Of a stretch of DNA of 29,765 bases, positions 1 through 19,745 are shown one piece after another. The notes below the pieces were generated by a model. The model was not told the DNA's origin. It saw nothing but the letters and a program-made list of their open reading frames with translations, and made no database searches. A program made the position numbers and the translations under genes. Each line of letters opens with the position of its first letter. The first letter of the stretch is position 1. Source of the DNA: a virus; the IMG/VR virus record IMGVR_UViG_3300030060_001426, positions 1 through 29,765 of that record. One strand, written 5' to 3'.

Positions 1-3000
1 TTTTCTTTTTCAAGCTCTCTTTGCTCTCTCTTTTTAATAGTTACTTGTTTCTTTTCTTCAGCTATCTCTTGTTTAACCTCTTCACGAGCCATACGCTTAG
101 TATCTAACGTAACCGTATACTCATCTTTCTGCCCTTCATTTCTAATAACTTTTTCACCAACACCTAAGTCCCAAGAACTCCAACCAAGAGTTAACATTAA
201 TCTTTGTAGATTAGTATTTTCTTGATTCATTGCTTCACGCAAGTTATCTATCTTACGTATACCTCTAGCCATAGGTATATTTGTTGTAGCTTCTACTACA
301 TAACCCATAGCTTCCCATGTAGGATTATCGTAATCAAGTAAATCCATGCGTGAGAATAAACCTTGATTAAACTTTCTAACTTGAGAAGCTTGAAATAATT
401 TTCTAGCTTTTGATCCTAGCGGTGGTGAAACTTGTAAACCTTCAATAACAACTTGACCGTAATCAGCTCTCCAGCCTTTAGCATCTTGTTCCATATACTC
501 TATGAAAGCGTTTTTAACCGTAGCTAAAACAGCGCCAGCTATACCAGAACCTCTTAATAAAGAGTCTATCATGCTATTTACTATTCTCCCTTCTTTAACT
601 TCTTTTCTTTCATCATCTTCTTCGCTATCATCAAATGCTAAAGCAAATAACGCATTTTGCAACGATGCAAATATAAAGTTTTGTATAGCGCCGTAATAAA
701 CTATTCTAGATATATTACTTTTCCAGTCACCACGTTTATTAATTAAATCACCAGCGGCTTTTTTAATTAAACGATTATACTGCATAGGTGTATTAGCGAA
801 GGCTAGTATTATACGGCCTAAGTTAGAAGCTTGTTGTTGTGATATACGATCAGGTCTAGCAGACTGCTGTGTCTCTTCAGCTATTTCTCTAAAATCTAAC
901 ATTGCTTGATCTTCAGCTTCTTGTTGTGATCTACCTTCTTTTATATATTTTCTAACTCTGTTTCTATAAAACGTAGCACCACCTGAAGCAATAGCGAAGC
1001 TATCTGCAACCTGTGTAGGTGTAAAACCTATTTTAAGTAAATATCTAAGAGCTGCTGTTGCTTTATTTTTAGCACCAGCTACAGCACTAGCAAGTTCAGC
1101 TTCGTTTACGTTAGTAGCAAGACCCGCTCTTCTGTTTTTTAAAAAATCAGAATTAAATAAAGAGCTAAAATCTGACCAATATTGTTTTTGATTAGCAAAA
1201 GCTCTACCAGCAGCAAATATATTATTATCTTCAAAGTTTATAAAGTTAACTGTAGATAACGTTTGTAGCACAGCAGATCTAGCGTTAAAGAACATGATAG
1301 CACCAACAGAGCTATTGATCCAGTTGTTCCATTGATTTTCAAACTTAGTTCTACCTCTACGTCTATTTTGACCAGTTTCCATACGGTATAATATATCTTC
1401 TAGTGCAGATCTAAAATTAGTACCGTAAGTAGCTTCTATTTTATTTAAGTTTTCAGGTGAAAATATCATGTCTTTATTTTCAACCCACTCTTGTAAAAAT
1501 TGTTTTCTTGATATTTTATCTGTAACGCTTTGAAGATCAGCAGCAATATTACCCATATCCCAACCTTCTTCTGGCTTTATATAACCTTCTGTACGTTTAC
1601 TAATAGCACCAACACCATCAGCAAAAGCTCTAAGCTCTGGATCAGACTGAACTAATCTTATCAACTCTTGTTGAGCGTTCTTAGCTAAACCAGGTATTTC
1701 ATAACCAGCTTTGTTGAATAGGTAAACTCTAATAGCACCATCAAAAGTAAATCCTCTTATAGGTGAAAGCTTGCCTAGCTTTTTTCTAACACTAGGAAGT
1801 TGTTTACGTAAAACTCTATATTGATCACGTATACCTTGTTTCATAGAGCTCATTTCACGATCTGCTCTAGCAAAAGGTTTAATTAAAGCTTCTTCAAAAA
1901 ACTTTATATCAGCGTTACCTTGCTCACCTTTACCTACAAAGTATCGTAGTAAACCTGTAAAATCTTCAGCAGAAGGCGGCACAAACAATGTAAAACCACC
2001 TACGTTTTTACCTCGCTTTCTACCTTCAACTAATGAAAATCTTTTTTCAGCACCAACACCTTTAGTACGCTCAAGCATCTCGTTAAACTCAGTAGACATA
2101 GTTTTGCTAAAGTTAATTCTAGCTTGAACAGACTTACCTTTAATATCCAACTGATCAAATACATGTTTAACAGCTTTAACATTAGGCAAAGCATCGTCTA
2201 CAAAATACATATCATTATAACCCTCTGCATACTTTTCTAAAAACCAAGCAGCCTTTGCGTCACCCGTGCTATTAGCTAAGCCCGTTATATTTTTAAGTGG
2301 AATATTTACACCTTTTGTTTTAAGCCACTCGTGTATTGCTGTAGCAGACTCTTGTGGTCTAGCTGTTAATACAAATACATTTTTAGTACCATACTTCTTA
2401 ATTTGATTTTTCATCTTCTGAAGTAACGGTCCATCAACACCACCTCTTACGTTTACAAAATCTGTAAAATCAAAGTCGTATCCTAGCTTTTGGTATCTAG
2501 GTCCTTGTATAGGCCATTGACCTGAGCTAATTCTAACTTGCTCTTTTGTTTCAGGATTTGTAGCTATAATAAAGTTTTCACCATCAATTATTAAAGTTTC
2601 GTCAAAATCAAACGTTGACATACCTCTAGACTTAGCAGATCTGCTTTGATAAAGATAAGCATTGCTGGCATCTTTTAAAGTTTTACTTCTTTTTGTTTCT
2701 GGCCTTACAATATAACTGTCTAAGTACTTTTGCATTTTTCCTTTAGCATCAGCAGTAGTCATTTCATTTGTAAACACTTGAAATAACAACTCTTGCTGCA
2801 TTGAAATAATATCTTGCGTCATGTGTAGTGATTTATCTACACCAACGTTAAATGTTTCTGCTAAAGTTCTACCATCTGATAATGTTATTACGTTTGGATT
2901 AATACCGTAATAAGTTTTACCGTTTAACTTATATTCTTTTTTATTTACTACCGGATTTATATATCTAACCCAATAAGGCATTATACCAAACAAGACGTCG

Positions 3001-6000
3001 TGGTAATATTCTTGAGGTATTTTATCAGCATATTCACCTAGTAAATCGTCAAATATTTTTGGTAAAGCTCCTTGAACAAAGTTTTCGTTCATTTGTTGTA
3101 GCATACCAGCATCTAAAACACCCATGTTAGCTAAATCCCAAAGCATTTGAGCATGCTCAGTAGCTGGTTGTGCGTGTTCTTCTCTATTAACTAAGCCTAA
3201 TGTATTATGAAAACCATACTTAGAGTTTATTCTTACAAAGTTTTTTTGATTAACAGGCGTTGACTCTAAAGCTGCAGCCCAAAACTTTCTGTTATTTTTA
3301 TCTTTAACACTTTCTTGTATAACTAACCATGTTTGAGAAAAACCTATTTCAGAGTTATTTAAAAAATCTTGGTTCTTTTGTTTTTTCCAAAAGTTTTGAG
3401 CCCAGTCATTATTTTGTTTACCATATTCTTTTCTTGAGCTAATAGCTTTTAAAACATCAGTTTCTTCTGCAAACTCTACATTTTTAAACTGCTCGTTAAA
3501 CTGACCTTTGTTTGCAAATAAATGTTTGTTGCTAGCGGGAAGATGTTTTGATCTAGACTCTTCAAAATTAGGATCGCTCTTTAGTATTGTTGTACCATCA
3601 TTTAAATAGTATTTTTTATCAATTTTTTTACCACTTGCATCTTTAACGTCATCAAACTTTCCGCCTGAGCCAGTCAACTGCATTAACCAAAAACTCTTAG
3701 GCATTTGTTTAGAACCATTTTGAGTAATCCATTTGATCATCTCGTTTCTGTCAGTGTCTTTAGTAAAATTTAATCTACTGTATTCGTGAGTATCTGCTAG
3801 TGTATTCCATGATTTTGAAAATAAAACCGGCGACATACCGTCTGATATTGTAGCAAGCTGTGGATTTTGTTTTCTAAGCTCTTGATTAGTTATGACTTTA
3901 CCAAGAAGATCAGCTAAGGCTATTATTCTAGCCGATGTATTTCTATCACGTGTAGGAGTACCGTCTACTATACCTACTAAAGCTAATAATTCAGAATCTA
4001 ATATATTAGTTCTTTTAACTTGAGTTTTTAATCCAGCTTTTGTTTTAGCTCGTGAAGATCTTTTATTATAAAAAGTATCTAATATTGTTTTAGGTACACC
4101 TGTAGCTTTACCTTCTGAATTAAATCCTTGTGGTAAAACCTGTATCATTAAAGCTGCGTTTTTGTTAAACCAGCGTTGAGCTGAAGCAACTTCTGCAGCT
4201 GTAAGATTTGCTTTACTTTTTATTTTTTTAGAAGATATACCTAATAGTCCACCAACAATATCTGATACAGCATTAGGCACATTTTTAAAACTAGTTAACG
4301 TTATAGGATCAATATTAGCATTAGTAACAGCTTCAGCGGCTTGACTAGATATATTTAAATTATCAGCAACATCAATTAAACTTGTTCTTCTTTCAGGTTC
4401 AGCAATTGCATCTTCAGCTGTTTCTTCTGCGGCAACGCCTCTAGCCTCTGTTATGTCAGCTTCAAAGTTTTCTTTTAATATTTTTTTAGCAGCTTCAATA
4501 GCTCTAGCTGGTAAGAATTTATTTATATAAGCTGCTAACGGAACACCAGACTGTGGATCATAATCGTTAACTAAACCATATAAACCTCTTTGACTAAGCT
4601 CTATTTCAGTCATAAGTAGTTCTTCATCATAACCTGGTACTTCACTATATTTCCTAGCTAACCTGTTTGTTATAGGTTTAAAAGCTTCTATAATATCAAA
4701 TATACCTTCCGACCCTCTTTCGCTATATATTTGTTGAACAGCAGCCGAGGCTTCAGATCTAGACTGTTGTTGACCTACTGTAGATTCTGTTTGTATTTCT
4801 CTTTCAACTTGCGTAAGCGCTCCTTCAATTTTTTTATTATTAAGTAGCTGTTGTTGTGATCTTGTTAGTCTTCCCTTTTTTATGCTAGTATTATAATCTT
4901 TAATAAAGTTAAATACATCTTGTGAAGTATTAAACTTTATTTCAGAACCTAACACATTTTGTCCAACTCTTCTAAGAAAATCTTTTATCTTAGTCATTGG
5001 TGTTGTTTCTATACTTATATCACCAGAAGCTAAAGCATCAGAGGCTAGCGTTAAAACTTCTACAGCTTGTTGAGAAGGATCATCTTGATACAACTCTAGT
5101 TTTTTTCTAAACTGACTGTTTTTAAACTGAACTGGATCAAGATCTTGTAAAAAACTACCAAGAGCTTGACCAACTGAAAAAGCAACATCAGGGTTTGTGT
5201 TTACTGTTTCCGCTATTAACTTATGTAAAAACTCATGAGCAGCTACGTTTGAGTTACCACCACTAAGAGCTACAGCTTTGTTAAGAAACATTTCACCTGT
5301 TCTAGAATCAAAAAATCCCTCTTGTCTAGAATTATAATCAGCTACTTCTTCACTAACACCATTTTGAATTAAATGATTTTTTAATTCTTCTGAGTTTTCA
5401 AAAGACTGTATCAAATTACCAGACACCTTGTTTACATTGTTTATTGTTTTGTCTAGTATCTCTTCTCTTCTTCGTATTACATCTGTGTTTTGTATAGCTT
5501 CATCTAAACCTTTTATTTTACTATCTATTTCACCATGAAAAGCTTTGTCTATATTTTGTTTTTTATTTACTAATCTTTGTTTTTCAACTAATAAATCTAA
5601 TTGCTCTGTAGTAACAGTTTCTGGAGCAGATTTTATAGCATTTCTAATCTCGTAAGCATGCGCTTTAGTGTCCATCACTTGCTCGTAGTTAGCTCTAGCT
5701 GCATCCTTAGATTTTTCATTATATCTTCTATCGTTTGCTACTTTTTTAGCATGAATAAGTGCCATTTCTTCATCAAGCTCTATAGTTTTTATTATTTCAT
5801 CAGCATTGTTTCTATACTGATCATAAATAATTTCTTTACTTTTTTTATAAGTTTTTGGAGCTTGAACAGTTCCAAGAGAACCAGATAAAAGTAAAGTACC
5901 AACTATAACGTTTCTTTGAGCTTCAGCATCTAAAAACTCAGAGTGAAAGTTTTCTAGAGTAGCTAGCTTTGCTATATCTTGCATTGCCATCTCTACTTCT

Positions 6001-8168
6001 TCTTCCCCAAGTTCCTTTGCTATGTTTGTTGTAAACTGTTTAAAAACTTTTTTTGTAGCTTCTACAGTAGTCGCTTTCTTTAAACTACCAATAAAGTTAC
6101 TTAATATACCTTGACCTGTTGGTGTTTTAAAAAAGTTTCTATCAGGCATTATCATCTGAGACAAACCTGTGGCAAAAGACATAGCGTTAGCGTAAGCAAG
6201 AGCTTGATTATTATCTAAACCTTGGTTTAAGCCATCAGTGTAGTTATCTGTTATAGTCATTCTATAGGTTGCGTCAAGCATCCTAATACCTTGTTTTATC
6301 TTTGTTGAGTTCTTAGCTATTGGAGCAAAGTTCTTTAAAAGATTAGCTCCTCTAGTATACATAGTAGTTCCTTGTACAACGCTTTGAACTCCACCAGAAT
6401 ACATTATACCAATTGTAAAAGGTAACATTTTAGCTACCATTTTAGTAGAGTTTCTAAAATTAACGTTGTAAGCGTCTGGATCTATGATTTGCTCAAACGT
6501 GCTTTTATTTCCTGGATCGTAAAGTTTGTTAGATATATCCGCGCCTATGTCAGACTCAGCAAAAAGTTCAACTTCGCCTGGTTTCATCCAAGCTTCTAGT
6601 AAGTATTCATTGTGATCAAAATACTCTGTATCTTTAGCAGCAAGGCCAGTTGTTGTCATAAGTTGGTAACCTAAAAAACCGCCTAAACCCACAGAGGATT
6701 TATATAACAATGTAGAACCTTCGTTTGCAAACGTAGCTATAGCGTCCCAGCTTTCATAACCTTTCTTTTTCCACCAAGACTCTGTCTCTAAACTTTTCTT
6801 TATAAACCTGTCCTTATATTCTTGTATCTTATCTGTTACCTCAAAACTACTGTTAAAAGCTTGCTTTGTCGCATCATAACCTAGCTCAGTATAAACTTTA
6901 CCTAAATAATCGTTAGCTTTGTCGTACTCTTTTAAAATTACTTGCTCTCTATTTTTCAGCTGCTCGTAACTTTGCATTAGCTGATTATTTTGAGTAACTA
7001 AATTATTATAAGCAATTATATCTTCTTGACTAGAGTTTTCATTTACGTCACCTAGTAAGTCTAGTTGTCTTTTTAATTCTTTTTGCTGCGCATCAAATAC
7101 TGAAAATTCTTTTTGTAATGCCTCTGCTTGAGACTGTAAAGTGTTTGTCATACCTTCGTATGCAGTGTATTTTTGTTCTAAAACCTTTGATTTAGCTGCT
7201 GTTATGATGTTTTCTTTTTCAGATAAAGATAATATAAACTCATCGTCTTGAGCGGCTCTATCAAAACCTTCAAGACCAATTTGTAAATAAATTTCTTTTT
7301 CTATTTCATTGGTTATTTCTATAGACTCTTCATCATTATCATCCCAAGACATTGAAGTTAGATCATCGTCTTGAGTAACAGTTGTAAGATTATCTTTACC
7401 TTTGTTGATTATTTCTTCTTGATCGTATCTATTCTTTTTTAAGATGCCACTTTCTAAATCTCTAGCGTTTTGTAAAAGTTCATTAGCTTTTTCTATCGCT
7501 TCAACTTCGCTAAACCCATACTGTTCCATGTAAAGCTGCACATTCATAGCGTGCATTTTATCTTCTTTTTCGTTAGCTATTTTAAGATTTTCTTTTCTAG
7601 TATCATATTCTAAAGATCTTTCATAACGAACTGGATCTTGTGTTATTTCTAAATTTTTCTTTTCATAGTCTTGCATTGCTTTCAATGCATCAGCAGCCGC
7701 TTGAGACATAGAGCCGTAATCAGCTACAGCTTGATTATATGTTTTTTTAAGATCTTGGTAATAATTATCTACAGATAAATTTAGTTTGTTTAGTGTTTGG
7801 GGAAGTTGTTGTCGACGGTTTTCAGAAGCTTCAAACTCTTCTTTAGTTAATAACTTGTCATTTTTAACATACATTGTATTTCCACTAATAGCTTGTTGAA
7901 AAAGCTCTTCTTGTGTAGGAGGTTCACCTTCATCAGTAGCTAACGTAAATTTAGACTTTGGTTGTGATACCGAAGAAGTAGTTTCCGAGCTGGATGCCAT
8001 ATCGTTTCCCGACGCTACAGGCGCATCCTGTACCGCAACGTCTTTTGTCTTTTCCACAAGACCTTTCTTTTTCATTACGTCCATGTATGAATCAAAGTCC
8101 ATACTATGCACTTTCGCAGCACTCTGTAGTTGTTCTAAAGAGTATTCTTTGCCATTAATTTCGTACAT
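1..8168 (-). CDS. Giant polyvalent internal virion/ejection-type protein (partial, C-terminus beyond window)
   Basis: The frame reads from ATG at 8168 to the window edge without a stop, giving about 2722 residues with the C-terminus missing. The start lies 5 bases after the preceding stop and is preceded by an A/T-rich tract. Residues 120-450 are charged and helical. Hydrophobic, glycine-rich stretches occur near 480-505, 571-600 and 750-765. HEFLH at 978-982, with E1037 in a following AVEVLTLAS helix, resembles a zinc metallopeptidase. Residues 1156-1232 resemble sigma-70 region 2 (RGLYGLVNDYDPQSGVPLAA, then an R/K-rich helix). Residues 1850-2010 hold HAD motifs: FDFDET (D1854, D1856), VLTAR (T1935) and FVDDAL (D1991, D1992). 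The rest is helical, with a hydrophobic stretch at about 2485-2515, and resembles the C-terminal helical domains of phage large polyvalent proteins. As the last gene after the hub and small ejection-type proteins, it is inferred to be packaged and ejected. Function is not established. Confidence 0.85.
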   Translation of the reverse strand, partial: MYEINGKEYSLEQLQSAAKVHSMDFDSYMDVMKKKGLVEKTKDVAVQDAPVASGNDMASSSETTSSVSQPKSKFTLATDEGEPPTQEELFQQAISGNTMYVKNDKLLTKEEFEASENRRQQLPQTLNKLNLSVDNYYQDLKKTYNQAVADYGSMSQAAADALKAMQDYEKKNLEITQDPVRYERSLEYDTRKENLKIANEKEDKMHAMNVQLYMEQYGFSEVEAIEKANELLQNARDLESGILKKNRYDQEEIINKGKDNLTTVTQDDDLTSMSWDDNDEESIEITNEIEKEIYLQIGLEGFDRAAQDDEFILSLSEKENIITAAKSKVLEQKYTAYEGMTNTLQSQAEALQKEFSVFDAQQKELKRQLDLLGDVNENSSQEDIIAYNNLVTQNNQLMQSYEQLKNREQVILKEYDKANDYLGKVYTELGYDATKQAFNSSFEVTDKIQEYKDRFIKKSLETESWWKKKGYESWDAIATFANEGSTLLYKSSVGLGGFLGYQLMTTTGLAAKDTEYFDHNEYLLEAWMKPGEVELFAESDIGADISNKLYDPGNKSTFEQIIDPDAYNVNFRNSTKMVAKMLPFTIGIMYSGGVQSVVQGTTMYTRGANLLKNFAPIAKNSTKIKQGIRMLDATYRMTITDNYTDGLNQGLDNNQALAYANAMSFATGLSQMIMPDRNFFKTPTGQGILSNFIGSLKKATTVEATKKVFKQFTTNIAKELGEEEVEMAMQDIAKLATLENFHSEFLDAEAQRNVIVGTLLLSGSLGTVQAPKTYKKSKEIIYDQYRNNADEIIKTIELDEEMALIHAKKVANDRRYNEKSKDAARANYEQVMDTKAHAYEIRNAIKSAPETVTTEQLDLLVEKQRLVNKKQNIDKAFHGEIDSKIKGLDEAIQNTDVIRRREEILDKTINNVNKVSGNLIQSFENSEELKNHLIQNGVSEEVADYNSRQEGFFDSRTGEMFLNKAVALSGGNSNVAAHEFLHKLIAETVNTNPDVAFSVGQALGSFLQDLDPVQFKNSQFRKKLELYQDDPSQQAVEVLTLASDALASGDISIETTPMTKIKDFLRRVGQNVLGSEIKFNTSQDVFNFIKDYNTSIKKGRLTRSQQQLLNNKKIEGALTQVEREIQTESTVGQQQSRSEASAAVQQIYSERGSEGIFDIIEAFKPITNRLARKYSEVPGYDEELLMTEIELSQRGLYGLVNDYDPQSGVPLAAYINKFLPARAIEAAKKILKENFEADITEARGVAAEETAEDAIAEPERRTSLIDVADNLNISSQAAEAVTNANIDPITLTSFKNVPNAVSDIVGGLLGISSKKIKSKANLTAAEVASAQRWFNKNAALMIQVLPQGFNSEGKATGVPKTILDTFYNKRSSRAKTKAGLKTQVKRTNILDSELLALVGIVDGTPTRDRNTSARIIALADLLGKVITNQELRKQNPQLATISDGMSPVLFSKSWNTLADTHEYSRLNFTKDTDRNEMIKWITQNGSKQMPKSFWLMQLTGSGGKFDDVKDASGKKIDKKYYLNDGTTILKSDPNFEESRSKHLPASNKHLFANKGQFNEQFKNVEFAEETDVLKAISSRKEYGKQNNDWAQNFWKKQKNQDFLNNSEIGFSQTWLVIQESVKDKNNRKFWAAALESTPVNQKNFVRINSKYGFHNTLGLVNREEHAQPATEHAQMLWDLANMGVLDAGMLQQMNENFVQGALPKIFDDLLGEYADKIPQEYYHDVLFGIMPYWVRYINPVVNKKEYKLNGKTYYGINPNVITLSDGRTLAETFNVGVDKSLHMTQDIISMQQELLFQVFTNEMTTADAKGKMQKYLDSYIVRPETKRSKTLKDASNAYLYQSRSAKSRGMSTFDFDETLIIDGENFIIATNPETKEQVRISSGQWPIQGPRYQKLGYDFDFTDFVNVRGGVDGPLLQKMKNQIKKYGTKNVFVLTARPQESATAIHEWLKTKGVNIPLKNITGLANSTGDAKAAWFLEKYAEGYNDMYFVDDALPNVKAVKHVFDQLDIKGKSVQARINFSKTMSTEFNEMLERTKGVGAEKRFSLVEGRKRGKNVGGFTLFVPPSAEDFTGLLRYFVGKGEQGNADIKFFEEALIKPFARADREMSSMKQGIRDQYRVLRKQLPSVRKKLGKLSPIRGFTFDGAIRVYLFNKAGYEIPGLAKNAQQELIRLVQSDPELRAFADGVGAISKRTEGYIKPEEGWDMGNIAADLQSVTDKISRKQFLQEWVENKDMIFSPENLNKIEATYGTNFRSALEDILYRMETGQNRRRGRTKFENQWNNWINSSVGAIMFFNARSAVLQTLSTVNFINFEDNNIFAAGRAFANQKQYWSDFSSLFNSDFLKNRRAGLATNVNEAELASAVAGAKNKATAALRYLLKIGFTPTQVADSFAIASGGATFYRNRVRKYIKEGRSQQEAEDQAMLDFREIAEETQQSARPDRISQQQASNLGRIILAFANTPMQYNRLIKKAAGDLINKRGDWKSNISRIVYYGAIQNFIFASLQNALFALAFDDSEEDDERKEVKEGRIVNSMIDSLLRGSGIAGAVLATVKNAFIEYMEQDAKGWRADYGQVVIEGLQVSPPLGSKARKLFQASQVRKFNQGLFSRMDLLDYDNPTWEAMGYVVEATTNIPMARGIRKIDNLREAMNQENTNLQRLMLTLGWSSWDLGVGEKVIRNEGQKDEYTVTLDTKRMAREEVKQEIAEEKKQVTIKKREQRELEKE

Positions 8169-11171: not shown

Positions 11172-14100
11172 TTAAAAGCTGTGATCGTGAGCAGCTGTTA
11201 GTAGTGAAGCCTTTGTGCTACCAAACAAAATCATGTTTGCAGTTTCGTTTTCACTTGTACCAGTATACTTACAGGTTAATGTTATTGTTTCTTGTATCGT
11301 GCCTCCAGATCCAGTTGTTGCAAAAGCAAACTCAAAGTCATAATCACCCCTTGTTGAAGAGTTTACAGCAGCTAAGTGTTTTTTCTCTGAATTTAAAAAT
11401 TCTGCGCTACCTACAAACCCAGCAGCCGTGCCACCTGGTAAATTTCCAGCATGAGCAAATCTAAAACCTTGCGCAGTTTTCATACTAACAGTAAATATAG
11501 TTTCTTCACTAGTACCTAGATCCGCACCATTTACTATAAAGCTAGATTGAGGGAAAGAATCTCTACCTGTTTGGAAGTTGTTGTTGGTAACATTTGTAGT
11601 AATAGCATATTTACTAGAAGTAGCAGCCATCTCTATAAAGTCTTTTGTGTTACCAGTTGGATCACTACCGTCAAACGAAGCTTTCATAACAGCGGTGTTA
11701 GTTATTAGTGGCGTACCCATAGCTGTAACTTTTACACTACTAGTACCAACTGCAGCCGTAGAGTTAGAAGTACCATCTACGTTTATTTCTATTGTAACAT
11801 CGTCTTCAATAGTAAATGAGTTAAAAGCAAAATCAAACTGTACGCCTAGATTTTTTGCCATATTAGAACATATTATCTGAGATACCTTAGCGCCACCATC
11901 AAAACCAGTATCACCGTCGTTGTATATAGCTTGTCCGTTAACAAGTGTCGGATCATCTACGTTGGCTACTTTTACTATATCGTCTTCTACAAAAGTAAAA
12001 CCTTCATCAGGTATCATTAACACTGTAGCGTTTAAATCTTGTAAATTAGTACCACTAGGTACTGTTTGCTGGTGTTCAACTACAGTAACGCCACTGCCAG
12101 CATCTGTGCCGTTATCAGCTTTATGAATTATATTTACTGTAACCTTGTGTCTAGTTAAACTAGTTATTGTTTCATCTACAGAAGGATCTTCTGTCCTTAA
12201 CGATGATCCAGATGGAAAACTATTTTGAGGTGTAGAAAGCATTGTGTAATTACTCCAGAAAGCGTTTTCATAAACCCACTTCATCACAGCTTCAGAGGTG
12301 TTAATACCTACCGCAGGGCATGTGTGTTTTATAACAACTTTACCTTGTATACAGTTACCAGCACTATCAAAAGCTGTTTCTTCCCAGAATATTTTGTAAA
12401 TAGACCCGTCAGCCGTAGTTATACCATAAGGATATGGATACAACGGTGAGAAAGCATTAGTCATTGGTAAGCCACCAAATTGATTTAAAATTGCTGCACC
12501 CTGCAAGTTAGGTGGATCAGCTACAATCATAGGTAAAAACAAACTCTTTATCCAAGCATCAGCCAAAGTAGTGGCACCTGGGAAAGAAGATCCAACGGCT
12601 GGTATAAAGTGACCAGGTGTTGCGTCTACAAAAAAGCTACAAACTTCTATTTCTTGACCAATAGGAGCTAAACCAGATATATTATACGCTCTAACAGTAG
12701 AGCCACCTAATAAAGATGGTACTATGTTTGGACCATTAGCTAAAAATATAGCGCCAGGCGTAAAAGAAGAAGGAACTACTGGATTAGTAAACGTATAAGG
12801 CGTAAAACCTAAATTACCAGTATAATTGTCAAAAGGTGCAAACTCTAATCGCAATTGAAACTTAGCGGTAGCAGGTGTTGTTGATACGCTAGATATAGGA
12901 ACGTTAAACGATTGATTAGACGTATAAGTAGCTGATGAGTATGTCACTGTTACAGTAGCAACACCACCAGATATAGAAGTATTAGCACTAGCTACACCAG
13001 TAGGTAAAGTACCTAGAGTTATAGCTGTTACTGAGTTACCACTTGTAGGATTAACAGTGAAAGACTGTGTTCCAGGTGATGAACTAAAGTTAGAACCTGA
13101 CTGAATATTAGACTGTACATTAGGAGTTACAGTAGCATTAGTAACAGAGCTACTAGATGTAACAGTTGACGTTATAAATAGACCAACATTTGTACCACTA
13201 GAAGATACACCTCCAGCAGCAGGGCCTAAGCCTTGAACAGAAAACTCATGTGAGTCTACATTACCTTGTCCACCACCACCACCTTGAGCATTAGTAAATG
13301 TAGTAGCTTCTCCAATTATATTGTTAAACCACTTACCTTCTTTTTCTCTAAACTCTAAAACTTCACCAGTTTGTTGATCAGTAATAATAGATTCTACGTG
13401 CCAACCATTATAAGCATCGTCATTATAATACTCTTGATCTGAAAACACTAACGTAACACCACTACCAATAGATAAAGCTTGGCTTAGTGTTAAACCTGTA
13501 CCAGCAGCATTAATAGCTGTAACAGTAACAGGATTAGCTTGAGGTGTTTGATCAAACGAAGAATCTGTACTAGTTACCATTTGACCAACTGTTAAACCAG
13601 TGACGGTAGCAGAAAGTGTAACAGAAGTGCTATTAGATGTTGTACCAGTAGTTGTACCTGTTCTATGATTAGCTAGCACTTTTGCTTGCGTGCCTTCATA
13701 GCTCATAGTTTTAAAGCTTTTAATAACAGCAGGTGCGTCATTAAATATAGGTGTTATAGTACTGCAGTATTGAACACCGTAAAAGTTGTTTCTAGTAATA
13801 CTAGCGCCAGCTAAGTCGTTGTCAGCGTGAAGGAACATATCACCTTGCTTAAACGTATAATATTGATTATTTAAAGAAACACTAAACTCAGGTATATAAG
13901 ATCTAAAACTAACCCAAGAGTTTGTTTTTTCATTAAAAGATACTGTTGTAACTCTTTTTGTAACATCTACTGTAGCGTCACCATCAGTATCATCTTCACC
14001 TAATTTATTGTGTATTGTTAAATCATATTCGCCTTTTCTATCGTTAAACCCACCGTAAAGCCCTACAGCTGACTTAAGCTCGTCAGCAAAGTAATCGTGC

Positions 14101-17100
14101 ATACCTATGTCTGATATTACAGTAATACCGTCTCTAGATAATCTACAAACAGAACCTCTATCTCTATCTGCAAAGTAACATCTGTATTCATCGCTAGCAA
14201 ATGACTCTGGGTTTCTTGATATACCATGATCACCAGCAAAAGGTATCGCTTGGCCTAATACCATTTTAGTCGATGTTACATTTGTATTACCATCAGCGTT
14301 AAATAAAGCGTCTTTGTTAGATAACACTTTTAATACTTTGTTTTCACAAAAAGCTAATATATCTGTGTTTCTAGTAAATGTTTTTTGTATACTACCATAC
14401 TCTGGATTTAAATCTTTTGTAATACCTTTGGCTGTTATAAACTGATTTAAATTATTAACACCAGTCTTAGAATTATATAAGCCAGAGAATATCATACCGT
14501 GCTTTCTCTCTTCCTCTTTGTAGTCTGTTGAGAAAGTAGACACTCTAACACCGTTATCTAATCTAGGCGCGTTAAAATCATCTAGTACTCTGTCTGACTC
14601 AACACCGTTACCGTAAGACCAGCAGTTGTACCATGGTAACAAATGTTCAGCACTAACACACTCGCTCACAACTTCTATTGTATCTGTGTTTATGTAGCTT
14701 TGATTTTGTCTATTTTCTATCTCACATATTTGCGCACTACCAGTATTTAAACCAGCGTTTAATTGAACTTCAGCTACCACGCCAGTAGCTGTTTTAAACT
14801 GCATACCTATTCTACCTAAACTTGGTCTTTCATCGTTACCGTTAAATATTTGAAGAGTACTTTTAGAACCATCAGGTCTAACAACGTGTAAACTACCAAA
14901 CTTAGCAAAAGAGCCTGTTAAATTTAAAACAGGGCTTGTAGTATTAAAGTTACCAGCGTAATTATCTGGAACAAAACCAACTGGTGAAACAGTATCTAAG
15001 TAATAACCTTGATCAGTGTTAGAGTATTGAGGAAAAAATGTTCCTGCTAAATAACCTTTTGAAACTGGTACAGCGGTACCATTGTACGAATTCATTGGAA
15101 ATGGTAAGTTAGGTACACCAAAGTTTACAACTCTATCTAACTGTATTTGTTGTACTCCACCTTTTTTACTAGAACCTTTTATATTTTTAACTATAGCATA
15201 TAAGTCTTCAAAATATCCTTTTTGCTTACCTTGATACAGCTTCATTGTGGTTGAAGGTATACTACCAGTACCATGACCATTGTTAACGGTAACAGGACCA
15301 TGACTAAACGTTGGTTGAGTTAAATCAGCTACATCAGAGTTATAACCTACTCTATATCCATATATTCTATCACCAACATTTATATGACTTTCTATATTGT
15401 CTTCATTTAGTTCAACTGGGTAAGTTCTAGGTATTTCGTAAAATATATCTAAATCTAAGTCTTTATCTGGTTTAGTTTCAAAAACCACACCATCATAAGA
15501 AATACCTACAGTGTGAGCTATAGGTGGGCTTACCGTGAAATCTATAGACTCTTCTACAGGATTAAACGATAAAGACCTAAGTAGTTTACCATCAGCTTTT
15601 ATTTTAACATAAAACTTATCTCTAGTATCTGTAATGCCATTCATAGAAGGAACAGGTACTCTTTCAGGTGCATTAGTAGTAGCGTTTGCTTTGTACTCTG
15701 GATTTACTATTGTTGGTATTTCGTTTGATATTTCTAATACCTTGTAAGGCTCGTAATCAGATATATTATTATCTTGACCTAATACTTTTATACCAGAACC
15801 TCTACCGTGCTTTAAATATAAAAAAGTATCATCTTGTATTTTGTTTCTATCTTCAGAGTGAAAAGCAACGTAATATTCTGTAACCTGTGTTGCAGAAGTT
15901 TTAACAGGATAAAACTTATAAGCAGTTACATTGTAATATTCGTTAGAAGTTTCTTTTATGTAAAATCTATAGTCAGTAGCCCAGTGTGGAAAATTACCAT
16001 ATACATTAGTATCAAAACTAACACTAAGCTTTTTACTTAAATGTGCTTCGTGAAAAGGAGTTGTAAAAGTACTTTCAGGTGCTAACACTACAGGCGACTG
16101 TCTACCAAATCTATCTAAATACACAACACCCAAAGTGTATGTACGACCAGATTTAACAGATGGATTAGGCATACCATATTCTTGATTGGTACCAAAGTGT
16201 TTATACGCTTGAGTTTTAGCACCGTTAAAAAGTCTACTAGTTTCCTTTCTCCAACCAATAACAAATCTAGGTTTTACGTCATTACCGTTTTTATCTACTA
16301 AATCATAGTTTTGAGTATAATTACTATATATTATTCTGTTAGCAGATATACATTGTGTTTTAGCTTTTCTAGGAACGTTATCAAACGGTCTTAGTATTTG
16401 ATCTGAAGGTATTGTACTTCCAAACTTTTCACCAACTAATCTAAATACACCTCTAGTATTACCATAACTTTTATTAGGAAAACTTGTATGTGTAAATGGC
16501 GCTGAGTTTACAGAGCCAAAACCAGGAAGATTTGCACTAACTGGTCCAACTCTATTAGGATGCATAGGGTGACCCGCTGCGTTTTCACCAAATATAGTCT
16601 TTAAATATTTACCATCATCGTCTTTCCAAGCATTAGAATTTTTCTTAATAGTTTTTAGTAAGTATATATTTTCTATACCGTCAAACTTACAAACTATATC
16701 TATAGCCTCTACATCGTGTGGAGTTTCTGGATCTATAAAGTCTTTTATTCTTAAATCTCTAATATCATTTTCCATTGCTTTTTCCGTACCACTCTCAGCA
16801 TCAAACATTATTCTTGTTTTAGGCAAGAAAGCAGGCATTGAAAAAGGAGAGAAAGCAGACTTCTGACCATCGTCATATCTATATCTTGTAGCTATTCTAG
16901 GAAACTTCTTACGGTACATAGGCTCTTCAGACTCTACTAAGTCTGCATGCCAGTATTCAACACCTTTTTTAGCACCAAAATTTTGACTGTTATTTAAAGA
17001 TTTACTCTTTTCTATTAACTGTACATCAACAGCTACAACATGAGACCAGTCTACTTTTTCTACAAAAGGCGTTCCAGATGTACTAGTTCCTCTATTAAAT

Positions 17101-19745
17101 GTTCTAACTGGTTTTACAGAAAAGTTTATAACATCACCACTAACTAAAGATGTTTTTATATTTTTCGAAAGACTAACAATTGTATTACCAGTGCTATGGT
17201 CTACACCAAAAACATAGGTATCGTAGTCTATATTATCATCAGCTGCTCCAGCTGCGTCTACACATAAAACTTTTTGACCTTTTTCTATTAAACGATTTAC
17301 ACCGTTCATAGTTATTTGATTTTGACCAGCAGAAGCTCCAGTAGTTAACGTTCCAGCTGTAACTATACCATTACCAGTACCAGCTGTAGAGCCATTACCA
17401 TCAAGTGGTCCACTATGATGTACGTTTATAATTTGAACAATACACCATCTAGAAGAAGTTTGCGATCCACTACCAGCGTCGTTTAAATTTGATGTAACAC
17501 CGCCGTATTTAGTTGGATTATCAACAGCTGGAAAAGACCATAGTTTCAACTTGTCTCCACGTCTCCAAGAGTGATTTCTAATATCATTATCTTTTTCTGT
17601 TTGATGAGGATAAAACCCAGGATATAATAATTCGTTGTTTATATTTCTTCTAACTTGTAATCTTACTGTTCTTGGTCGGTTTTGAAAATCAGTATTACTA
17701 GTAACATTTTTTGGCACAATTTCACTACCTCTAGACAAAGCACCTATAAAGTCTCCGTTACCAGAAGGCTCAAAGCTATCATCAGGAGCTGTTTGACCAG
17801 CCGGTGTGGTTCCGCTCATACTAGGTCCAATATTACTCAAATTGGTAGTAGGATCATAAGTATCAGTAGGATTAGCGTTATAGTTATCTTGAACTCGAAT
17901 ATCTGCAGATGTACCTTGTGGATATACAGTACTGTTTCTTTTCCACTCAGAAAAATGCCTAGCTTCTCCATATTGATCTCCACCCATAATAGCTTGTAGA
18001 GGATCTAAATAAACAAAGGGTACACCAGGTGTTTTAGCTTGCAAGCCGATAGCGTGTGTTGGTCCTATTCTTCTACTTCTTTTCATTTCAAGCTTAGGAG
18101 GATTTTTAGGAGCTCTTCTAATAACCGTAATATCTTCTAAAACATAAGGTCTTATTTTGTTTTGTTTTAACACACCGTATTTCTGATCAGCACTACCAAA
18201 CTCTTCGCTAATGTTAGCGTTGTAAATCATTTTAGTAGTGTAGTAAAAGTTAGGTCCATAGCTAACACTAAACTGTTGACCTACACCTTGTATTGGTATT
18301 TGAGTAGCGTAATTAGAGCCCCATTTACCTTTAGCTATATCTATTCTTTTAGGTTCTGTTCTTCCATCAGTATAGTATATGATACCATCAACAATATCAA
18401 TACTGTTTATTTTGTTTGCTCCTGGTGTTGGATTATCTATAACTGTTTCTGTACCAGGACAGTCTGTTTGTGTATATTCGTATTTATCACCAGTAACAAA
18501 ATCTAATAGTTTTTCCTTGCTAAACTCTAATACAACACCATCAGTAATATTCTGTTGTGTTATTTCACATGGCTTATCTAGTCTAATAGTTATCTTAGGT
18601 GTGCTAACACCACCAACAACATCACTACTAAATGTAATATCTTCGATATGTACTTTACCTAAAGGAGTATTGCTTAACGCAACCCCAGAAGGATTTAAAG
18701 CTGTTTCCCATATATTTGTTCCATCTGGCAGCAATGCTTTAACCTCCATGCCAATCTCCATGCCGTTAGCGTAGTTCATGTTACTAGACGAAGTAACAGC
18801 CGTAGTAGCTGAGTTAGTTGTTGTTACCTCTATATCAGTAAACTTTTGCCCAATCGGAACTTCTTGACCATGTTCAAATTTCGCAAGTGGTGCTCTTCTA
18901 ACCGTGTGCACGTCTACAAAGACAGCTTGCATTTTATCTGTTTGCACATTAGCTATTGTTGTAGAGTTTTCAGGTTCTATTTCTACAATAGCATCTGCTC
19001 TAGCTCCAACTAAAACAGCGTTTGAAAAAGTTAATCTATCAGCAGCTGCAACCGTACTGTTTGGAGTTTTCGATAAAGTGAGTGTAGTACCACTAATAGC
19101 AGCTACCGTCGTACCGTAAGCTATACTACTAGCATTAGTACCATTAGCAACATGTTGCCCAACCGCTATATTAGCATTAGCAGAATCTAAAATAATTGTT
19201 ATGGTTGTTGAATTTGAAGCTACGTTTTGATTAGCTACTACGCCACCCACAGCTGCTTCAGCATCAGTAAATAAAGCGTTAGCTAAAAATTGATATATTT
19301 TATCTGTTTGATTGTCTACTACAGCACCAACAGTTTCACATTGCTCGTGGAAAGTACTACCGTTAAAAGCACCTTGATTTGTTGGAGTGTAAAATTGAAA
19401 GTTTTTGTAAAGATCATATACTGTTTGTGCTTTAGCGCTATCATCGTCCCAGTCTAAAGCAGTAAAAGCATTTTGTATTTGCGTAGGAGTTACAGTGTTA
19501 GTATTAACAGCTATAGGTATAGTAGTGTTGTTATTTTGTGCTAGCTCGTTCCAGAAAGGTTCTTGAACTTTAATACCACCTATAGATGTATTACCAGGTA
19601 AATTTCTAGCAGTACCTATTTCAGCATCTTCAGCAGTAGATACTTCTATATTTAAAGCATCTCTATATTCACCATTAGGTACAAGTCTTTCGTCGAGGTC
19701 TTTGTTCATACGACCTCTCATAAAATTTCTAGTTAATTCAGCCAC
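11172..19745 (-). CDS. Tail hub / stabilisation protein (P22 gp10-like type) with large beta-rich C-terminal extension (2857 aa)
   Basis: The N-terminus (RMNKDLDERLVPNGEYRDAL, then NIEVSTAEDAEIGT) and the later YYTDGRTEPKRIDIAKG are signatures I associate with phage stabilisation/tail hub proteins of marine and crAss-like podoviruses. These plug and extend the neck below the portal and ring proteins. At 2857 residues it is several times longer than the P22 protein. Three diverged beta modules are inserted at residues 177-241, 803-876 and 2037-2102. A GGGGG linker at 2155-2159 separates the hub from about 700 Ser/Thr/Val-rich residues that look like fibre or adhesin beta domains and could contact the host. 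The hub-type core runs through at least residue 2000 (QYYTFKQGDMFLHADND). Start ATG is 3 bases after the upstream stop. Only the hub role is reasonably supported; receptor binding by the C-terminus is inferred. Confidence 0.9.
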   Translation of the reverse strand: MAELTRNFMRGRMNKDLDERLVPNGEYRDALNIEVSTAEDAEIGTARNLPGNTSIGGIKVQEPFWNELAQNNNTTIPIAVNTNTVTPTQIQNAFTALDWDDDSAKAQTVYDLYKNFQFYTPTNQGAFNGSTFHEQCETVGAVVDNQTDKIYQFLANALFTDAEAAVGGVVANQNVASNSTTITIILDSANANIAVGQHVANGTNASSIAYGTTVAAISGTTLTLSKTPNSTVAAADRLTFSNAVLVGARADAIVEIEPENSTTIANVQTDKMQAVFVDVHTVRRAPLAKFEHGQEVPIGQKFTDIEVTTTNSATTAVTSSSNMNYANGMEIGMEVKALLPDGTNIWETALNPSGVALSNTPLGKVHIEDITFSSDVVGGVSTPKITIRLDKPCEITQQNITDGVVLEFSKEKLLDFVTGDKYEYTQTDCPGTETVIDNPTPGANKINSIDIVDGIIYYTDGRTEPKRIDIAKGKWGSNYATQIPIQGVGQQFSVSYGPNFYYTTKMIYNANISEEFGSADQKYGVLKQNKIRPYVLEDITVIRRAPKNPPKLEMKRSRRIGPTHAIGLQAKTPGVPFVYLDPLQAIMGGDQYGEARHFSEWKRNSTVYPQGTSADIRVQDNYNANPTDTYDPTTNLSNIGPSMSGTTPAGQTAPDDSFEPSGNGDFIGALSRGSEIVPKNVTSNTDFQNRPRTVRLQVRRNINNELLYPGFYPHQTEKDNDIRNHSWRRGDKLKLWSFPAVDNPTKYGGVTSNLNDAGSGSQTSSRWCIVQIINVHHSGPLDGNGSTAGTGNGIVTAGTLTTGASAGQNQITMNGVNRLIEKGQKVLCVDAAGAADDNIDYDTYVFGVDHSTGNTIVSLSKNIKTSLVSGDVINFSVKPVRTFNRGTSTSGTPFVEKVDWSHVVAVDVQLIEKSKSLNNSQNFGAKKGVEYWHADLVESEEPMYRKKFPRIATRYRYDDGQKSAFSPFSMPAFLPKTRIMFDAESGTEKAMENDIRDLRIKDFIDPETPHDVEAIDIVCKFDGIENIYLLKTIKKNSNAWKDDDGKYLKTIFGENAAGHPMHPNRVGPVSANLPGFGSVNSAPFTHTSFPNKSYGNTRGVFRLVGEKFGSTIPSDQILRPFDNVPRKAKTQCISANRIIYSNYTQNYDLVDKNGNDVKPRFVIGWRKETSRLFNGAKTQAYKHFGTNQEYGMPNPSVKSGRTYTLGVVYLDRFGRQSPVVLAPESTFTTPFHEAHLSKKLSVSFDTNVYGNFPHWATDYRFYIKETSNEYYNVTAYKFYPVKTSATQVTEYYVAFHSEDRNKIQDDTFLYLKHGRGSGIKVLGQDNNISDYEPYKVLEISNEIPTIVNPEYKANATTNAPERVPVPSMNGITDTRDKFYVKIKADGKLLRSLSFNPVEESIDFTVSPPIAHTVGISYDGVVFETKPDKDLDLDIFYEIPRTYPVELNEDNIESHINVGDRIYGYRVGYNSDVADLTQPTFSHGPVTVNNGHGTGSIPSTTMKLYQGKQKGYFEDLYAIVKNIKGSSKKGGVQQIQLDRVVNFGVPNLPFPMNSYNGTAVPVSKGYLAGTFFPQYSNTDQGYYLDTVSPVGFVPDNYAGNFNTTSPVLNLTGSFAKFGSLHVVRPDGSKSTLQIFNGNDERPSLGRIGMQFKTATGVVAEVQLNAGLNTGSAQICEIENRQNQSYINTDTIEVVSECVSAEHLLPWYNCWSYGNGVESDRVLDDFNAPRLDNGVRVSTFSTDYKEEERKHGMIFSGLYNSKTGVNNLNQFITAKGITKDLNPEYGSIQKTFTRNTDILAFCENKVLKVLSNKDALFNADGNTNVTSTKMVLGQAIPFAGDHGISRNPESFASDEYRCYFADRDRGSVCRLSRDGITVISDIGMHDYFADELKSAVGLYGGFNDRKGEYDLTIHNKLGEDDTDGDATVDVTKRVTTVSFNEKTNSWVSFRSYIPEFSVSLNNQYYTFKQGDMFLHADNDLAGASITRNNFYGVQYCSTITPIFNDAPAVIKSFKTMSYEGTQAKVLANHRTGTTTGTTSNSTSVTLSATVTGLTVGQMVTSTDSSFDQTPQANPVTVTAINAAGTGLTLSQALSIGSGVTLVFSDQEYYNDDAYNGWHVESIITDQQTGEVLEFREKEGKWFNNIIGEATTFTNAQGGGGGQGNVDSHEFSVQGLGPAAGGVSSSGTNVGLFITSTVTSSSSVTNATVTPNVQSNIQSGSNFSSSPGTQSFTVNPTSGNSVTAITLGTLPTGVASANTSISGGVATVTVTYSSATYTSNQSFNVPISSVSTTPATAKFQLRLEFAPFDNYTGNLGFTPYTFTNPVVPSSFTPGAIFLANGPNIVPSLLGGSTVRAYNISGLAPIGQEIEVCSFFVDATPGHFIPAVGSSFPGATTLADAWIKSLFLPMIVADPPNLQGAAILNQFGGLPMTNAFSPLYPYPYGITTADGSIYKIFWEETAFDSAGNCIQGKVVIKHTCPAVGINTSEAVMKWVYENAFWSNYTMLSTPQNSFPSGSSLRTEDPSVDETITSLTRHKVTVNIIHKADNGTDAGSGVTVVEHQQTVPSGTNLQDLNATVLMIPDEGFTFVEDDIVKVANVDDPTLVNGQAIYNDGDTGFDGGAKVSQIICSNMAKNLGVQFDFAFNSFTIEDDVTIEINVDGTSNSTAAVGTSSVKVTAMGTPLITNTAVMKASFDGSDPTGNTKDFIEMAATSSKYAITTNVTNNNFQTGRDSFPQSSFIVNGADLGTSEETIFTVSMKTAQGFRFAHAGNLPGGTAAGFVGSAEFLNSEKKHLAAVNSSTRGDYDFEFAFATTGSGGTIQETITLTCKYTGTSENETANMILFGSTKASLLTAAHDHSF
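13440..13637 (-). repeat. Diverged beta module, copy 3 of the hub protein (residues 2037-2102)
   Basis: The copy starts SNSTSVTL, contains LTVGQMV, then VTAI and GLTLSQ, and ends VTLVFSD. It matches copy 1 in the order and spacing of these landmarks (66 versus 65 residues). It lies just before the glycine linker. The repetition is visible at protein level only. Confidence 0.6.
17118..17339 (-). repeat. Diverged beta module, copy 2 of the hub protein (residues 803-876)
   Basis: This is the most divergent copy: GASAGQNQITM, then EKGQKVLC, a longer middle, TIVSLSKN and SGDVINFS at the end. Landmark order (small-residue start, GQ.V, xLS, final FS) follows copies 1 and 3, and it is about 74 residues long. 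Confidence 0.5.
19023..19217 (-). repeat. Diverged beta module, copy 1 of the hub protein (residues 177-241)
   Basis: The copy starts SNSTTITI, contains IAVGQHV, then VAAISG and TLTLSK, and ends RLTFSN. It is inserted within the N-terminal hub region, where it interrupts otherwise non-repetitive sequence. Modules of this kind are known as insertions in phage tail proteins. Confidence 0.6.

Follow-up and report, generated by a model that had tools for sequence, protein, structure and literature searches.

The window analysed here is the whole of a linear IMG/VR virus record of 29,765 bases, and the record is partial. Its minus strand carries a podovirus-like structural module, in which the terminase large subunit, the portal, and more head and tail proteins were recognized by PHROGs. 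This TerL-portal-capsid-tail module ends with a giant ORF (3-8168, minus strand) as its last gene. The terminase is nearest to that of an uncultured Manatee Spring phage (63.5%), followed by those of phages of Flavobacterium, Cellulophaga, Tenacibaculum, and Maribacter. Because of these terminase relatives, the host of the window phage is probably a member of Flavobacteriia. A second giant ORF (11172-19745, minus strand, 2857 aa) matches a PHROGs virion structural protein, and its C-terminal half is repetitive and of low complexity. The features of the first giant protein are as follows.

3..8168, minus strand: giant multidomain protein P0001, 2722 aa, with the ORF open at the window edge
4842..5339, minus strand: metallopeptidase-like module, residues 944-1109, with HEFLH at residues 978-982 (window 5223-5237)
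4473..4742, minus strand: sigma region (1.2-)2-like domain, residues 1143-1232 (AlphaFold2 model, fold matches, and hhalign with controls)
4596..4625, minus strand: helix equivalent to region 2.2, with the family acids D45 (37/50), E46 (49/50), and E48 (45/50) in model numbering
4521..4544, minus strand: VPLAAYIN, the equivalent of region 2.3, with 8/8 positions invariant in the 50 aligned members
4422..4466, minus strand: conserved, predicted-disordered tail FEADITEARGVAAEE after the sigma-like domain (sequence and model)
3807..4379, minus strand: downstream partner domain, residues 1264-1454 (HMM, 69 of 81 giants)
2181..2612, minus strand: HAD-like phosphatase motifs FDFDETL, LTARP, and FVDDALPN, residues 1853-1996 (motifs read, Pfam null)
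729..1481, minus strand: conserved C-terminal module, residues 2230-2480, homologous to Gundel_1 gp074

Two modules of the giant have distant homologues in cultured phages: for the C-terminal module this is gp074, a virion protein of Tenacibaculum phage Gundel_1 (E 3e-11), and for the peptidase module it is elemo gp18 (E 1e-10). Homology also links these two proteins with one another and with phi18:3 gp123, which is encoded by the last structural gene of that phage and owes its annotation as a structural protein to MS/MS. Thus, the distant homologues of the giant in cultured phages are annotated as virion or structural proteins, one of them by MS/MS, which bears out the first-pass annotation where it took the giant for a virion-type protein. 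The location of the window giant in the virion is well supported by inference from these homologues.

In 80 of the 81 distinct giant ORFs that carry the sigma-like domain, the HExxH peptidase-like module immediately precedes it on the N-terminal side, and the HExxH motif suggests a peptidase activity. HExxH also occurs in elemo gp18, Gundel_1 gp074, and the giant of MW202828. The downstream domain of about 190 residues was predicted alone with a pLDDT of 89; no fold match was found in the PDB, which is no proof of a new fold. It was considered as a region 3 or 4, but a separate model and search gave no sigma-like match. The HAD-region module is present in 63 of the 81 giants and the C-terminal module in 57, truncated ORFs lowering these last figures. 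In the tail after the sigma-like domain, Phe, Asp, and Glu are invariant at model positions 93, 96, and 99. The tail motif, F-x-x-D-[IV]-x-E-A-[RK]-G-V-A-A-E-E, might mark a site of processing or act as a binding peptide.

The giant resembles the phage polyvalent proteins (PMC5512222) in being giant and multidomain, in lying beside virion genes, and in combining an HExxH peptidase-like module with enzyme-like modules, the domains other than the sigma-like one being defined by motif or HMM. No large-polyvalent Pfam domain was detected in P0001, and sigma domains are nowhere mentioned in the text of the polyvalent-protein paper (Iyer et al. 2017, PMC5512222).

A domain resembling sigma region 2

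The first-pass annotation had placed a sigma-70 region-2-like segment at 4473-4703 on the minus strand. This placement corresponds exactly to residues 1156-1232 of ORF 3-8168, and the quoted motifs are present. The residues were correct, while the domain turned out to be slightly longer: since the helix preceding the quoted start superposes on region 1.2, the start was moved to residue 1143. The sigma-2-like segment in the giant is confirmed as a real observation.

AlphaFold2 with 50 relatives gave a pLDDT of about 94 across model residues 1-90. In the VIA comparison, the best 50 matches were all sigma factors (50/50), the top one with a Z of 8.9 and 2.5 A over 85 residues. Foldseek matched the SigE N-terminal domain with a probability of 1.00 and a TM of 0.68 of the target at an E of 0.2, the individual Foldseek E-values being not significant. 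Since such a Z can also arise from common helical arrangements, what counts is the uniformity of the VIA list and its fit to the sequence register. The top BFVD match is a protein of another uncultured virus (E 1.9e-7), and most of those after it are phage sigma factors. By AlphaFold2, VIA, and Foldseek together, the predicted model matches sigma regions 1.2-2 and has the three-dimensional fold of region 2 rather than some other fold.

The sequence points the same way when profiles are compared. A profile of 31 relatives was aligned by hhalign with 11 real bacterial sigma factors (plasmid-borne), giving 79%, a P of 1.7e-5, and a score of 34.0, and the register agrees for helix 2.1, region 2.2, and region 2.3. 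In the controls, the maximum was 22.8 for 200 column shuffles and 14.4 for 44 other windows from the same giant proteins, and the reversed profile scored 11.2. Thus, a chance helical similarity was ruled out by the shuffles and decoys, and the claim of a sigma region 2 fold in the first-pass annotation holds. Taken as single sequences against the bacterial sigma profile, the window copy scored 30.3 and T4 gp55, whose role as a sigma factor is biochemically proven, 19.3, while residue-shuffled members reached at most 22.8. Among NCBIfam matches of the 31 members, sigma models are the commonest (SigI 13 with a best E of 0.0098, SigK 3, FliA 1); these matches are weak taken singly, though concordant. 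Two of the six marginal PDB sequence matches are sigma factors in the same register.

Curated Pfam models, including PF04542, did not detect the domain, the window copy staying silent even at E 10, and single-sequence searches of the segment against Pfam, PHROGs, and the PDB gave nothing useful. The similarity is thus seen by profile-profile and structure comparison, and not by curated Pfam. The first-pass expectation of a profile match to sigma region 2 therefore stood for profile-profile comparison, where it is significant, and failed for PF04542. Its remark that no clear region 4 follows was right, since PF04545 found none in P0001 at E <= 10. Because neither PF04542 nor a region 4 was found, I call the element a sigma-2-like domain and not a sigma factor.

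At the level of residues, the P-x-x-G...Y pattern, to whose conservation the first-pass annotation had tied its claim, is kept in the family (Tyr in 50, Pro in 49, and Gly in 48 of 50 members). Among the same 50 members, the sigma70 glycines G408 (46/50), G411 (50/50), and G424 (48/50) are kept, and in the -10 element the equivalents of F419, Y430, and W434 are always aromatic (50/50). Thus, the domain is like region 2 of the sigma-70 family (RpoD, RpoS, and the SigE N-domain) in predicted fold, helix order, and sequence register, and in the conserved equivalents of G408, G411, G424, and Tyr430. At the clamp positions, D403 is Asp in 37/50 and Thr in the window copy, Q406 is replaced by Glu in 45/50, and neither E407 nor N409 is conserved. 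By analogy with sigma70 and gp55 (PMC7892883), the region 2.2-equivalent helix may face the RNA polymerase clamp. Unlike the sigma-70 family, the domain has no PF04542 match, carries a four-residue insertion before region 2.2, and has other invariant residues in regions 2.3-2.4, with the sigma70 -10 residues Y425, K426, W433, Q437, and T440 replaced by the (near-)invariant V, P, K, A/S, and I. It also stands without a region 3 or 4, embedded in a virion-type protein of more than 2700 aa.

T4 gp55 offers a parallel, as it also has a region 2 without a region 4 (PMC7892883), and its fold matches the model with a Z of 6.9 and 3.5 A over 88 residues. In gp55, F86, Y97, and T99 are required for the -10-like element, and acids of the third helix lie on the clamp (PMC7892883). 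F86, Y97, and T99 align with the invariant Y61, Y72, and N74 of the domain, the equivalence coming from the alignment; by this measure, the domain has both a gp55-like predicted fold and its pocket residues. Of the three clamp-binding acids of gp55, only E70 has an equivalent that is acidic in the majority of members, and the window copy has Thr there. Direct profile comparison of the domain family (A4) with gp55 gave no similarity (0.4%, score 14.6). Unlike the domain in the giant, gp55 is small, made during infection, and equipped with a sliding-clamp-binding tail. Since gp55 also lacks most of the sigma70 -10 residues, their loss in the domain is alone no argument against DNA recognition; the replaced residues are no evidence for it either. 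The net charge of helix 66-89 is +3, and DNA binding by this helix is possible.

Distribution, constraint, and transcription setting

A scan with the domain alignment detected relatives at 181 or more IMG/VR loci; 80 of these were retained, and the alignment comprised 87 sequences. The domain shows 69% identity within the family, a figure that is not counted as evidence of conservation because the loci were retrieved with patterns of this very domain. Among 31 diverse members, 25 columns are invariant. A fairer measure comes from locus L002, which had been found with patterns that lie elsewhere in the protein, outside the segment. Between the window and L002, dN/dS by a simple counting method is 0.009 for the segment (dS 0.52) versus 0.18 over the shared protein. 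In this one pair, the constraint on the segment is very strong, and no other module of the giant is held more tightly. Thus, it is not a relic, and the degenerate structural relic that the first-pass annotation had left as an option is contradicted.

The domain always lies within a giant ORF, and no instance was found outside. Twenty-nine giants without the canonical domain keep the other modules, and 7 of these 29 carry a divergent version detected by HMM; the version in L011 shows a direct similarity to bacterial sigma (score 25.2, E 8e-4). Divergent versions with the other modules kept indicate that the slot between the peptidase and the downstream domain is maintained in position despite the divergence of its sequence. 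Seven to eight distinct architectures lack the canonical domain, which is thus replaceable or divergent. The giants of L005 and L007 are 72-74% identical to that of the window over the C-terminal third, while the middle shares almost nothing with it. These two giants also lack the sigma-like domain, an instance of cargo swapping among close relatives.

The domain was absent from cultured phages in tblastn with two queries, and from Gundel_1, phi18:3, phi38:1, elemo, and MW202828. A pattern scan of 84,980 bacterial and archaeal genomes found no relative. With a family that is common in IMG/VR but absent from the cultured phage records and, by pattern, from these genomes, a widespread transcription-related protein would have gone unnoticed.

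Seventeen related records of 54-72 kb were examined for polymerases and sigma factors. No T7-type polymerase (PF00940) was found in the 17 records, phage T7 being detected as a positive control, and no beta-prime catalytic domain (PF00623), whose controls were also detected. A scan of four near-complete records for a D-x-D-G-D type motif gave no candidate. The first-pass idea of an alternative to carrying a virion RNA polymerase agrees with the absence of the two tested families, PF00940 and PF00623, from the related records, N4-type and highly diverged polymerases lying outside these models.

PF04542 matched in 16 of the 17 records, weakly in G014. In 15 of them, the matching ORF is 233-274 aa long and has regions 2 to 4, as in a real sigma factor. 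The PF04545 matches in the relatives fall in stand-alone ORFs of about 255 aa, not in the giants. In each of the four records examined in full, the giant contains the domain, and one or two sigma genes are present besides. These stand-alone factors (L135:943-1701 and its homologues in G001-G016, G006 having two) belong to a non-structural module; among cultured phage records, stand-alone sigma gave only four weak matches, in human faecal phages.

With a separate sigma in 16 of 17 records, the virion segment is not the only sigma-like element of these phages. In the window record, which is partial, no separate sigma gene was seen. With none of the tested polymerases and a sigma of their own, the related phages very probably use the host RNA polymerase and reprogram it with that sigma. 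Descent of the giant's domain from the phages' own sigma factor was considered and is unsupported, the profile score against phage sigmas being 22.8-23.2 versus 24.3 for shuffles; against bacterial sigmas, unlike phage sigmas, the domain profile exceeds the shuffles. The domain is thus not demonstrably derived from the separate sigma.

Possible roles of the sigma-2-like domain

The following model is proposed. The giant virion-type protein of these podovirus-like marine phages, relatives of Flavobacteriia phages, carries the sigma-2-like domain as cargo and would enter the cell together with the DNA. The adjacent peptidase-like module may free or process the domain, which would then dock on the beta-prime clamp helices of the host RNA polymerase at time zero. 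Two outcomes are conceivable. By a -10-like contact, the domain may assist in the opening of phage early promoters, much as the sigma-2-only factor gp55 does at late ones, or it may keep the host sigma off the enzyme until the separate phage sigma is made. That a virion-delivered sigma-2 module binds the host RNA polymerase in one of these two ways, gp55-like or as a competitor of the host sigma, has in my view an even chance of being true.

The narrower version, in which a virion-packaged, peptidase-released sigma-2-like factor programs the host RNA polymerase for early promoters at time zero, is tentative and on balance doubtful, although the domain may work like a sigma factor. Against the model as a whole stand the lack of a region 3 or 4 in the giant, the replaced sigma70 -10 residues, the clamp acids of gp55 that are mostly not kept, and the architectures without the canonical domain; a promoter role is also less necessary because a separate sigma factor is present. 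A transcription tool for early infection that lies next to a peptidase is not without precedent, since a metallopeptidase is fused to nearly all virion RNA polymerases of N4 (PMC5512222). Like the N4-type virion RNA polymerase, the domain is a possible injected, peptidase-fused tool of early transcription; unlike that complete polymerase, it is a sigma-2-like domain alone and would need the host enzyme.

The domain may also be nothing but a competitor of the host sigma, which occupies the beta-prime clamp helices upon injection and turns host transcription off with no promoter recognition. The conserved acids of the region 2.2 helix (E46 and E48), the replacement of several sigma70 -10 residues, the lack of a region 4, and the later appearance of the phage's own sigma are consistent with this. 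However, the best-conserved stretch is the equivalent of region 2.3, which touches DNA in sigma70 and gp55, and a mere blocker needs no such conservation. I regard competition alone as rather unlikely.

Reuse of the sigma-2 fold in the virion or in ejection, for binding of phage DNA or an ejection protein and with no RNA polymerase contact, also seems unlikely. It would suit a domain that sits inside a virion-type protein, always in the giant ORF, with a positively charged helix 66-89, but the sequence is nearer to bacterial sigma than gp55 is, which would be unexpected after such a change of role.

PhyR is a sigma-mimicking response regulator. The domain might likewise mimic sigma in order to bind an anti-sigma factor or another sigma-binding host protein and so free the host sigma, which would agree with the region 2 fold match and the changed DNA-contact positions; yet there is no partner candidate and anti-sigma contact usually exceeds region 2, which makes this quite improbable.

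A functionless degenerate relic or a chance resemblance, for which only the silence of the curated Pfam models speaks, is strongly disfavoured by the dN/dS at the given dS, the invariant columns, and the shuffle, reversal, and decoy controls.

Phage polyvalent proteins that bring effectors into the cell have been described before, but no description of a virion-carried sigma element was found in the open-access literature. N4-type and jumbo phages package whole polymerases. To my knowledge, how early transcription proceeds in phages that have no RNA polymerase of their own, strong host-type promoters aside, is known for few systems. If the model of a packaged module acting on the host RNA polymerase is true, these phages inject a tool that acts on the host transcription machine at the first moment of infection. 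A packaged sigma-2 module would be a much smaller solution than a packaged polymerase, and this alternative to polymerase packaging would be widespread among uncultured marine phages.
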